A stretch of 64,000 nt of DNA from Glutamicibacter nicotianae (GTDB lineage Bacteria > Actinomycetota > Actinomycetes > Actinomycetales > Micrococcaceae), in contig NZ_BJNE01000006.1 of NCBI RefSeq assembly GCF_006539525.1, positions 124,001 through 188,000 on the forward strand. The letters are read 5' to 3'. The notes under the pieces were generated by a model that had not been told where the DNA came from, made no database searches, and saw only the letters and a program-made list of their open reading frames with translations. Shown here one piece after another: positions 41,751-44,832 of this stretch. The position numbers and the translations under genes are program-made. Position 1 is the stretch's first letter. Every line of letters begins with the position of its first letter.

Positions 41751-41830
41751 ACTGCTAAGCTTGTCACAGACCGACTCGATGCCGGTACTTCTCGCAGTTC
41801 TCCAGTTAGCCCTGGACGAGGGATTCGTAC

Positions 41831-41836
41831 TAGTAT
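41831..41836 (+). promoter_or_regulatory. Candidate -10 of the infC-rpmI-rplT transcript
   Basis: TAGTAT about 210 nt upstream of infC, just before a structured leader: hairpin GGATCGCA/TGCGATCC (41904-41923), then the attenuator. No convincing -35 was found. Confidence 0.4.
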
Positions 41837-41973
41837 TGAGCCATGCAAGTGGAGGCCAACTCCCACCCGCTGTCGCCGTTTCAGGCTTCCGGGTAATTCG
41901 GCAGGATCGCAGCAATGCGATCCCCTAGCGCTTACGCGGGAACTTTCCCGTGTTCGGCTATGTCGTTCTTTCT

Positions 41974-42014
41974 GGCCTTCGCCTGCAATCGCAGACGGAG
42001 GCCTTCTTTGTTTG
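41974..42014 (+). terminator. Attenuator-type terminator in the infC leader
   Basis: Stem GGCCTTCGCCTGC / GCAGACGGAGGCC (two G-U pairs), AATC loop, then TTCTTTGTTT. It ends 32 nt before the infC start, so read-through must be controlled; L20- or IF3-type leader control is the natural comparison. Confidence 0.72.
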
Positions 42015-42046
42015 CGGTCATGGATTACGAATTTCAGGAGTGACAC

Positions 42047-42730
42047 ATCAGCGATCCACGCATTAACGAGCGCATTCGCGTGCCAGAGGTACGTCTCGTC
42101 GGCCCTAATGGTGAGCAGGTAGGCATCGTCCGCATTGAGGACGCGCTTCGTCTTGCTCTCGAGTCCGATCTGGACTTGGTCGAGGTGGCACCCAGCGCCA
42201 AGCCTCCAGTGTGCAAATTGATGGATTTCGGCAAGTACAAGTACGAAGCCGCCGTCAAGGCTCGCGAAGCTCGTAAGAACCAGACCAACACGGTCTTGAA
42301 GGAAGTCCGCTTCCGCCTGAAGATCGACACCCACGACTACGAGACCAAGGTCGGCCACGCACTGCGCTTCTTGGGCGCAGGCGACAAGGTCAAGGCCATG
42401 ATCCAGTTCCGTGGTCGTGAGCAGCAGCGACCAGAAATGGGCATCCGCTTGCTTGAAAAGTTTGCAGCAGACGTCGCCGAAGTTGGGGTCATTGAGTCCA
42501 GCCCGCGCATCGATGGCCGAAACATGGTCATGGTTGTTGGTCCGCTGAAGAACAAGGCAGAGGCTCGCCGCGAGCAGCAGCAGAAGTCGGGTGGCCGCAA
42601 TTCGGCCAAGCGCAAGATCCGCACCGACGCTCCGGTTGAGACCGAGGGCCAGAATGTCGCAGCTTCCATGGATGATGACGCCCGCGCCAAGCTGGAGCAG
42701 GCACGTCAGGCAGCTGAAGGCGACGCCTAG
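42047..42730 (+). CDS. infC: Translation initiation factor IF-3, ATC start
   Basis: 227 residues if started at the ATC at 42047. AGGAG (42036-42040) lies 6 nt upstream, and an in-frame stop (42041-42043) excludes anything earlier than 42044. The N-terminus then reads [28 protein letters not shown], the family-typical IF3 start; the next canonical codon, GTG at 42080, would delete that conserved segment. N-domain to about 85, linker [19 protein letters not shown]-domain to about 180, then an actinobacterial charged tail. IF3 rejects non-AUG initiation, so this start implies autoregulation. Confidence 0.93.
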
Positions 42731-42849
42731 CCAAGCCTGTTGGGCTTTCGGGCCCGTCACCGTTCACGGTGAAGGAACTTCCTCCGGGAAGATCCAACTA
42801 CAAGAGAACAACAGCGGTCACCTTTATCGGGGCCCGCTTCGGATGATCC

Positions 42850-42872
42850 CCACCCGGTGCCTTACCGGGTGG
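42850..42872 (+). promoter_or_regulatory. Hairpin upstream of rpmI
   Basis: CCACCCGGT / ACCGGGTGG with a 5-nt GCCTT loop ends 7 nt before the rpmI Shine-Dalgarno (AAGGAGA). Possible site for L20-type translational control; no direct evidence. Confidence 0.4.
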
Positions 42873-42895
42873 AGCACGTAAGGAGAACGGCAGCT

Positions 42896-43090
42896 ATGCC
42901 GAAGTTCAAGACTCACAGTGGCGCCAAGAAGCGCTTCAAGCTCACCGGCAGCGGTAAGCTCGCTCGCCAGCAGGCCAACCGTCGCCACTACCTGGAGCAC
43001 AAGTCCTCGCGCGTTACCCGTCGCCTGGCTTCTGACCAGATCGTCGCCAAGGCCGATGTGAAGACCATCAAGCGGATGCTGGGCCTCTAA
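42896..43090 (+). CDS. rpmI: 50S ribosomal protein L35
   Basis: 64 residues, very basic: [20 protein letters not shown], then the [17 protein letters not shown] segment characteristic of L35. ATG at 42896 after AAGGAGA. Middle gene of infC-rpmI-rplT; the gaps on both sides (165 and 104 nt) contain hairpins that may tune relative synthesis. Confidence 0.97.
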
Positions 43091-43194
43091 GCTCTCCCTT
43101 TCGCACTACGGGGAAGCAATACCCCACCACCCATAGATTTCACCCATCCCGCGGCATTGCGGGCACTGGGGAACTGACTTGAAGGAGTACACAC

Positions 43195-43842
43195 GTGGCA
43201 CGTGTGAAGCGGGCAGTAAACGCCCACAAGAAGCGTCGCGTCGTTCTGGAACGCGCAAAGGGTTACCGCGGTCAGCGTTCGCGCCTGTACCGTAAGGCCA
43301 AGGAGCAGCTGCTCCACTCGTTCGTTTACAGCTTCAACGACCGCCGTAAGCGCAAGGGCGACTTCCGCCGCCTGTGGATCCAGCGCATCAACGCTGCATC
43401 CCGCGCCAACGGCATGACCTACAACCGCCTGATCCAGGGCCTGAAGGCTGCCCAGATCGAGGTTGACCGCCGCATGCTCGCAGAGCTGGCTGTTTCGGAC
43501 TCGAACGCTTTCGCCACCCTGGTGAAGGTTGCAAAGGACGCTCTTCCAGCTGACGTCAACGCACCAAAGGCTGCTGCTGAGGTTGCTGCCCCTAAGGCTG
43601 AGAAGGCTCCAAAGGCTGCTGCCAAGGCTGTCGAGGGTGAAGGCGTAATCAAGGCTGTTGAAGGCGAAGACGCTCCTGAGGGCTTCGTCATCAAGGGCAA
43701 CGCCGGCTCGAACAAGTACCACGTTCCAGGTTCGACCTGGTACGAGCAGACTGAAGCAGAGTACTGGTTCAACTCCATCGAAGCTGCCAAGGCTGCAGGC
43801 TTCGAACCAGCTGGCGGAGAATCCCGTCAGCAGATGAAGTAA
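43195..43842 (+). CDS. rplT: 50S ribosomal protein L20 with C-terminal sunset-like domain
   Basis: 215 residues, against about 118-130 for ordinary L20. Residues 1-117 are canonical ([53 protein letters not shown]). Residues 118-162 are an Ala/Lys/Glu/Pro linker with the repeat AVEGEG..KAVEGED. Residues 163-207 read [20 protein letters not shown] ... [19 protein letters not shown], resembling the 'sunset' domain (GN..S..YH.P.S..Y..T.AE.WF....A..AGF). GTG start after GAAGGAG. The added domain would project from the ribosome; function unknown. Confidence 0.95.
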
Positions 43843-43889
43843 ATCTCTTCTCCCTTTGAGCTGAGGCTCAGGTAGGACAGATCACAACG

Positions 43890-43926
43890 AAGGACGGGTC
43901 CCGCGCATAGCGCGGACCCGTCCTTT
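43890..43926 (+). terminator. Terminator of infC-rpmI-rplT
   Basis: AAGGACGGGTCCCGCGC / GCGCGGACCCGTCCTT (one bulged C), ATA loop, followed by a short T-rich end. Confidence 0.85.
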
Positions 43927-43941
43927 GCGTGCATCTACCGG

Positions 43942-43954
43942 TATTCTCGAGTCA
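43942..43954 (+). promoter_or_regulatory. Leaderless promoter -10 of the TrmH-type gene
   Basis: TATTCT, CGAGTC, ATG at 43954. Confidence 0.55.
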
Positions 43955-44832
43955 TGAGCAGTTTTCCTCCAGAAGTGATGTCCAATCCACGCGCTGAACG
44001 GGTCAAGGCCATCGCGCGGCTGGCCAAGATCAAGGGCCGCGAAGCCACCGGTGAATACCTCGCCGAAGGCCCGCAGGCTGTTCGCGAAGCGCTCAAGGCC
44101 CATCTGGAGGACGACAACCTGGTCCAAGGCGTCTACGCCGTCGGCGGCTTCCTGGAAAGCCACGAGGAATTCGCGCAGCTGCTCGACGAGGCGAAGGTGC
44201 CAACCCGCATCGTCACCGGCGAGGTGCTGCACGCCATGGCCGACACCCAGACCCCGCAGGGCATCCTCGCGGTCGTCGCCATGTCCCAGCCGCAGCTGAG
44301 CGAGGTGCTGGACACCAAGCCGAAGCTGATCGCCGTGCTCTGCCGCGTGCAGGATCCGGGCAACGCCGGCACCATCCTGCGCGCCGCCGATGCCGCCGGA
44401 GCTGATGCGGTGATCCTGACCAAGGGCAGCGTGGACATCTACAACCCGAAGGCCGTGCGCTCCACCGCCGGCTCGCTGTTCCACCTGCCGGTACTGAGCA
44501 ACATCGAATTCGACCACCTGGTCGCCGCCGCGAAGAGCACCGGAAGCCAAGTGCTGGCAGCCGACGGCTATGCCGCCCACAACCTCGATACCCTGCAGGA
44601 TGCCGCCGTGCTGCGTGCACACCAACCGGGCACCGCCGCGCCCGAAGGCCAGCCGGTGCTCGAAGCGCCCACCCTGTGGCTGTTCGGCAACGAAGGCCAA
44701 GGCCTGGACGAGCACGAGAAGGATGCCGCCGACTACCGAGTGGCAGTGCCGCTCTACGGTGTCGCCGAATCCCTGAACGTGGGGACCGCATCCACCGTCT
44801 GCCTGTACGCCTCGGCCCGCGCCCAGCGCTAG
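43954..44832 (+). CDS. TrmH/SpoU-family RNA methyltransferase
   Basis: 292 residues. An N-terminal substrate-binding domain (residues 12-110, EYLAEGPQAVREAL) precedes the SPOUT knot: motif 1 VQDPGNAGTILRAADAAGADAV, motif 2 LWLFGNEGQGL, motif 3 VPLYGVAESLNVGTASTVCLY. It 2'-O-methylates rRNA or tRNA ribose; target unknown. Residues ~215-235 contain a loop insertion (HQPGTAAPEGQ). Lies between rplT and pheS as in relatives. Confidence 0.92.
   Translation: MSSFPPEVMSNPRAERVKAIARLAKIKGREATGEYLAEGPQAVREALKAHLEDDNLVQGVYAVGGFLESHEEFAQLLDEAKVPTRIVTGEVLHAMADTQTPQGILAVVAMSQPQLSEVLDTKPKLIAVLCRVQDPGNAGTILRAADAAGADAVILTKGSVDIYNPKAVRSTAGSLFHLPVLSNIEFDHLVAAAKSTGSQVLAADGYAAHNLDTLQDAAVLRAHQPGTAAPEGQPVLEAPTLWLFGNEGQGLDEHEKDAADYRVAVPLYGVAESLNVGTASTVCLYASARAQR

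Follow-up and report, generated by a model that had tools for sequence, protein, structure and literature searches.

What is a second domain doing at the end of a ribosomal protein that normally does without one? The question is raised by the gene for ribosomal protein bL20 (rplT) in the window, a 64,000-nucleotide stretch of Glutamicibacter nicotianae DNA. The gene is a single open frame on the plus strand (43195-43842; GTG start, TAA stop) encoding 215 amino acids, with a Shine-Dalgarno-like AAGGAG (43182-43187, plus strand) placed so that the GTG lies 7 bases downstream. Residues 1-117 (43195-43545) form the bL20 core, to which the bL20 chains of the PDB align, and which passes TIGR01032 (residues 2-114; 136.9 bits, cut-off 65.65) and PF00453 (residues 3-109; 138.9 bits, cut-off 30.8). 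An Ala/Lys/Glu/Pro-rich linker of 43 residues (residues 118-160; 43546-43674) leads to a sunset domain with a conserved lead-in (residues 161-208; 43675-43818), within which the sunset model NF051437 matches residues 166-207 (43690-43815) over its full profile (1-42; 67.5 bits, cut-off 27, E 7.4e-19). The last seven residues, ESRQQMK (43819-43839), extend a PAGG-x-x-x-Q segment that the family's ribosomal tails conserve, and residues 118-215 contain no cysteine.

The surroundings of the gene are the usual ones. On the same strand, infC (encoding IF-3, TIGR00168; 42080-42730) and rpmI (encoding bL35, TIGR00001; 42896-43090) precede rplT, rpmI immediately so, in the order infC-rpmI-rplT; an RNA-methyltransferase-like gene lies on the 3' side and pheS further off. 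A promoter scan found none, and an Rfam scan of 41800-44000 returned no RNA family at gathering score, with two matches far below it.

The fusion is a member of a variant already present in NCBIfam (release 20.0): residues 1-215 align to positions 1-219 of NF051450, 'L20, sunset domain variant', at 428.2 bits (cut-off 375, E 8.7e-129), with no visible difference from the model. The scan output gives this entry a protein name and no function, and our literature searches found no paper on the L20-sunset variant. The sunset variants of L17 (NF051448), L4 (NF051449) and S2 (NF051451) share the tail and the style of linker with the L20 of the window, and their tail profiles cross-match; they differ from it in the ribosomal protein that carries the tail. 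ArfC, a membrane protein, has a cysteine-free domain in common with the window's tail, which reaches 49.5 bits against the ArfC variant NF051433; the whole protein falls short of the cut-off of that model (62.2 vs 100 bits, residues 110-205 only). An earlier note, made from the letters alone, had read the gene as L20 fused to a C-terminal domain resembling the sunset domain of ArfC, and mentioned similar modules on some further ribosomal proteins of actinobacteria. The fusion is borne out by three models over cut-off (NF051450, NF051437 and TIGR01032), the proposed limits of linker and domain were correct to within a few residues, and NCBIfam names the fused domain sunset, as in ArfC; as for other ribosomal proteins, L17, L4 and S2 variants are catalogued, and uL22 and bS16 are newly added here. 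Beyond the NCBIfam entries, the present analysis contributes the selection acting on the domain, its predicted, possibly Ada-like fold, the range of its carriers, its gain and loss, the distinction between acidic and basic copies, the copying of tails between genes and its presence in uL4 of Cutibacterium acnes.

Sunset domains of any type occur in 294 of 395 genomes of the window's family (Micrococcaceae), in 28 of 32 genera. A census of 80 of these 395 genomes, covering all 32 genera, was read match by match save for one match below cut-off (G155:C7); a sunset match was present in 69 of the 80. Every census genome has one L20 and one L17 gene. The L20 gene bears a sunset tail over cut-off in 30 of them, L17 bears one in 18 and L4, identified from the fetched sunset loci, in seven; L17 and L4 tails occur together in four genomes, and an L20 tail together with either in none of the 80. 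Altogether 52 of the 80 genomes have a tagged ribosome, one with a frameshifted L20 tail (G105) being counted, and 28 have none, some of them congeners of tagged genomes. The tail in 30 of the 80 genomes and 92 distinct open L20-sunset genes rule out an artefact of assembly or frameshifting. In named genomes 571 stretches were matched, and the best 80 of the 571 are all L20 tails, a ranking biased to L20 by a query that began with the window's own tail; they come from Glutamicibacter, Paeniglutamicibacter, Arthrobacter, Paenarthrobacter, Zafaria, Zhihengliuella, Haematomicrobium and others, and the closest among these best 80 are Arthrobacter sp. NIO-1057, MYb214 and Glutamicibacter ardleyensis, in agreement with the window's origin in Glutamicibacter. 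The frameshifted L20-sunset gene of G105 (L122) lies in an assembly of 350 contigs and possibly reflects a sequencing error. Five L20 genes without the sunset domain (L173-L177; 147-159 residues) keep an Ala/Lys-rich C-terminal extension, and two of these genomes tag L17 instead.

Selection separates the domain from its linker. After identical genes had been collapsed, dN/dS was estimated for core, linker and sunset domain separately, giving 0.069, 0.259 and 0.065 for 13 genes of the window's genus (78 pairs), 0.037, 0.216 and 0.082 among Paenarthrobacter-like genes (17 genes, 136 pairs), and 0.171, 0.262 and 0.201 among Paeniglutamicibacter-like genes (8 genes, 28 pairs). Across all 92 distinct L20-sunset genes (4,181 of 4,186 pairs) the values are 0.111, 0.402 and 0.181, so that in this largest set the sunset domain changes more quickly than the core. 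Within the window's genus, selection on the domain is as strong as that on the L20 core; the domain is held tighter than the linker in all four gene sets, clearly in three and by a small gap in the Paeniglutamicibacter-like genes. Translation of the tail is implied by these ratios, and a low value in the domain beside a high one in the linker indicates that the sequence of the module matters and that of the linker much less. Of 60 columns in an alignment of 23 chosen L20, L17 and L4 tails, 24 are invariant.

Structure prediction divides the tail in the same way. Given an alignment of 77 sequences (selected from 120 distinct domains, with near copies and broken ones left out), AlphaFold2 modelled the domain with a mean pLDDT of 89.7 and a pTM of 0.73, placing strands at positions 10-13, 18-20 and 34-36 and a helix at 39-44. 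In a model of the full-length protein the same elements return in the tail at a pLDDT of about 70-76, and residues 122-147 of the linker fall below 50; the sunset domain is accordingly predicted to be compact and the linker disordered. The nearest fold in a Foldseek search is a weak match, the N-terminal domain of Escherichia coli Ada (1u8b; E 0.18, probability 0.89, TM 0.60), and among 25 chains compared only three, all E. coli Ada, have a Z of at least 2 (1u8b, 4.6; 1zgw, 4.3; 1wpk, 4.2). The Pfam Ada_Zn_binding family (PF02805) touches 23 of the 77 family members, with a best E of 8e-4; the window's tail is not one of them, Pfam as a whole finding nothing there and PF02805 no match even at E 10. 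An hhalign comparison joins 19 columns (probability 75), within which both share an A-x-A-A-G-F-x-P stretch and the cysteine pair of the Ada segment FRPCKRC falls on FEPAGGE. The metal-binding domain of Ada holds zinc with four cysteines; the sunset tail, in contrast, has none and is acidic. The sunset domain may therefore descend from, or resemble, an Ada fold minus its zinc site, a weak match that does not imply a function.

One sunset tail is present in a solved ribosome. When all PDB sequences were compared with the domain profile, a single convincing protein emerged, L4 of 8crx (chain e) and five more entries, at residues 243-290 (E 2.4e-21), with the runner-up at E 2.3. Entry 8CRX is the 70S ribosome of Cutibacterium acnes, and its tail is a ribosomal sunset tail like that of the window, placed on uL4 and not on L20. 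The structural report describes the uL4 extension as exposed to solvent and as exceeding that of E. coli by 100 residues; it has no density and is called 'likely disordered' (PMC10085706). A flexibly tethered, folded module would give the same picture, and the extension annotated as likely disordered contains a module that is predicted to fold.

The module is not confined to ribosomes. Sunset domains were found at E 1e-6 in 33 of 396 genomes of a phylum-wide survey and in 36/79, 2/36 and 24/61 genomes of chosen groups, and at E 1e-15 in 170/245 and 109/396 genomes of further chosen groups, all of these counts taking in exported and membrane carriers. Outside the Micrococcaceae census tails were sampled by best score, and the frequencies of carriers there are no estimates. 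The carriers identified outside the family are uL4, uL22, uS2, bS16, NusA, the gamma subunit of the F1 ATP synthase (AtpG), three complex I subunits (NuoC, NuoJ and NuoE) and an ion-pumping membrane pyrophosphatase; bL17 tails also occur outside Micrococcaceae, and a bL20 tail was found in a genome (G490) related to the window at phylum level only. The ribosome is thus tagged through six proteins (bL20, bL17, uL4, uL22, uS2 and bS16) and complex I through three. For bS16, uL22, NusA, AtpG, NuoC, NuoE, NuoJ and the pyrophosphatase the NCBIfam scans returned no variant model of their own; what these eight match is the ordinary family of each, the general sunset model and variant models that belong to other carriers. 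Remaining carriers are ArfC-like proteins with a single transmembrane segment, exported proteins, or carriers to which no assignment was made. NuoE was named by eye in two loci (L416 and L446).

Two kinds of sunset domain can be told apart by cysteine and charge. Where the carrier is an identified ribosomal, NusA or energy-complex protein, 162 of 163 distinct tails lack cysteine, the exception being one uL22 tail, which has one. For other copies the labels 'secreted' and 'membrane' were themselves set by the presence of cysteine, so that the cysteine status is independent only for identified carriers. Among the family-survey loci, mean net charge is -3.6 for L20 tails (n=30), -3.1 for L17 (n=23) and -2.9 for L4 (n=21); non-ribosomal copies average +3.9 with cysteine (n=38) and -5.2 without (n=11, of which two are fragments of ribosomal tails). 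Many of the cysteine-bearing copies have signal peptides by eye, and the exported ones include thermonuclease-like proteins. On a simple reading of these patterns, copies outside the cell would be held by a disulfide and those inside would have none. In the window's genome the sunset model detects, besides the L20 tail, a second domain (G000:C1:533338-533475, or L002:1501-1638), which has two cysteines and ends a protein with an apparent signal peptide; at E 10 the model finds no other cysteine-free copy in that genome. A general link between ribosome and membrane through the pairing of sunset domains was considered and rejected, this genome having only the L20 tail and the one exported protein. 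Among viral contigs, 64 pattern matches yielded no confirmed sunset domain.

These observations are consistent with the sunset domain being a flexibly tethered docking module for a complex rather than for a single protein, a reading to which we give about an even chance of being right. A normal bL20 would be made and built into the 50S subunit, as its intact core suggests; the flexible linker at its C-terminus would hold the folded module off the ribosome surface, presumably in solvent, where it would serve as a docking tag for a putative partner. The bound partner would be brought to the ribosome, or the ribosome to a particular place or state; the point of attachment would be of little import, the tagged entity being the complex. 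That the complex is the target is suggested by the tagging of complex I through three subunits and of the ribosome through six. The docking reading itself is favoured because the module is far better conserved than the linker, because the attachment point varies and the tagged complex stays constant, and because the copies concerned are acidic and nearly all free of cysteine; the exposed uL4 extension of C. acnes, reported to lack density, is as expected of a tethered module. Against it, the tag can be lost and many relatives do without it; the faster change of the domain than of the core over all L20-sunset genes, and the small gap between domain and linker in the Paeniglutamicibacter-like ones, also count against it. 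Moreover, 50 further distinct cysteine-free tails sit on carriers without assignment, many with a single transmembrane segment by eye, so that a restriction to large machines is not established. Among the uses that the earlier note had offered, a recruitment tag would fit best.

The other uses offered there, metal binding and envelope anchoring, could appeal to the Ada-like fold, to the exported relatives and to the ArfC-like single-transmembrane carriers. For metal the tail is ill equipped, its residues 118-215 being without cysteine and the C-terminal cysteine pair of the Ada zinc site aligning to Ala/Gly, which tells against that proposal of the note; envelope anchoring seems unlikely for an acidic, cysteine-free copy on a ribosomal protein, and no membrane-anchored cysteine-free copy was found by the sunset model in the window's genome. 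Taken together we regard the two as very improbable. The same structural likeness might instead make the tail an Ada-like nucleic-acid binder holding mRNA, rRNA or DNA near the ribosome: two of the three best structural matches (1u8b, 1zgw and 1wpk) are DNA complexes, the Ada family reaches 23 of the 77 aligned members, and there are thermonuclease-like proteins among the exported carriers (by eye). Ribosomal copies are acidic, however, the positive charge lying with the non-ribosomal cysteine-bearing ones; the Ada cysteines are absent, and a Z below 8 may mean a common arrangement only. Nucleic-acid binding is improbable in our view, if somewhat less so than a role peculiar to L20, for instance in building the 50S subunit, in contacting rRNA or in the autoregulation of L20. 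Such a role is favoured by the early action of bL20 in assembly, by its activity as a translational repressor and by the L20 tail in 30 of the 80 census genomes; the occurrence of the module on bL17, uL4, uL22, uS2, bS16, NusA, complex I and ATP synthase contradicts it, and the Rfam scan gave it no RNA element at gathering score, leaving it hardly to be expected.

The history of the tails bears on a further alternative. On a species tree of 49 genomes (a quick tree from 15 proteins of the ribosomal gene cluster, with six rows less than half filled), the L20-tail state changes seven times, the L17-tail state eight times and a three-state character (L20, L17/L4 or none) 15 times, and in genera g10, g24, g26 and g31 the tail state differs between members. 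In a tree of the tails themselves (57 columns and 288 rows with many unresolved forks, using 10 of the 80 named loci and leaving out L124-L183), the L20 tails of Micrococcaceae lie all on one side of a branch, apart from the L17/L4 tails (one change), a pattern that needs no more than one origin within the family and, after it, either losses or transfers of the tailed gene. Reading the 300 bases 3' of the stop codon in three frames showed no decayed tail in the untagged L20 genes of 11 genomes. The mutual exclusion of L20 and L17 tails (31 genomes, G105 included, v 18, and both in none of 80) has a hypergeometric probability of 3e-5 on raw counts; it is weakened when phylogeny is considered, because only five independent supported contrasts remain, which fall short of significance in a sign test (median p 0.5), and it may be explained by shared ancestry. 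At times tails are also copied from one gene of a genome to another: in G1234 the uL4 and bL17 tails with their lead-in (L435 and L436) reach a DNA identity of 96% over 198 bases, a sign of recent copying, against 91% between this uL4 tail and that of a congener. For the bS16 and bL17 tails of G1273 the figure is 91%, and for the remaining within-genome pairs compared it ranges from 64 to 83%.

Repeated gain and loss, direct copying and tailless congeners are what would be expected if the tail were neutral or selfish, spreading by recombination of gene ends and tolerated where C-termini are exposed, and in the Paeniglutamicibacter-like genes domain and linker indeed evolve at near rates (0.20 v 0.26). 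Such a tail is hard to square with a domain that in the window's genus is as constrained as the core beside a drifting linker, and with the invariant columns shared by L20, L17 and L4 tails; we consider neutrality unlikely, though well short of negligible. The docking reading can also be carried further, to a general address label on the large machines of actinobacteria, recognised by one shared cytosolic receptor, which would gather ribosomes, NusA-bound transcription, complex I, ATP synthase and membrane pyrophosphatase by way of the acidic, cysteine-free module; the label would have spread by copying of 3' ends, and a lineage could tag a given complex through any subunit that came to carry it. 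This bolder version is rather doubtful. What lends the locus its interest is the wider pattern of one travelling module on the major machines of actinobacteria: six ribosomal proteins, NusA, complex I, ATP synthase and membrane pyrophosphatase carry it, and it is often lost and, in the window's genus, strongly selected while kept. A receptor, if there is one, would reveal how these bacteria arrange or shut down their principal machines, with the tail as a convenient handle.

Single genomes illustrate how tags combine. One (G1402) tags uL4, bS16, bL17 and NuoE, and another (G506; L296 and L297) tags uL22 and NusA, with uL4, named by eye, tagged too. The ion-pumping membrane pyrophosphatase (L438:668-4735, in G1435) is 1356 residues long and ends in two or three copies of the sunset domain. 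In one family (f128; L374-L400), whose genomes mostly have two sunset matches, the 24 loci read comprise 18 ArfC-like single-transmembrane proteins with a nearly invariant, cysteine-free sunset domain and six L17 tails.
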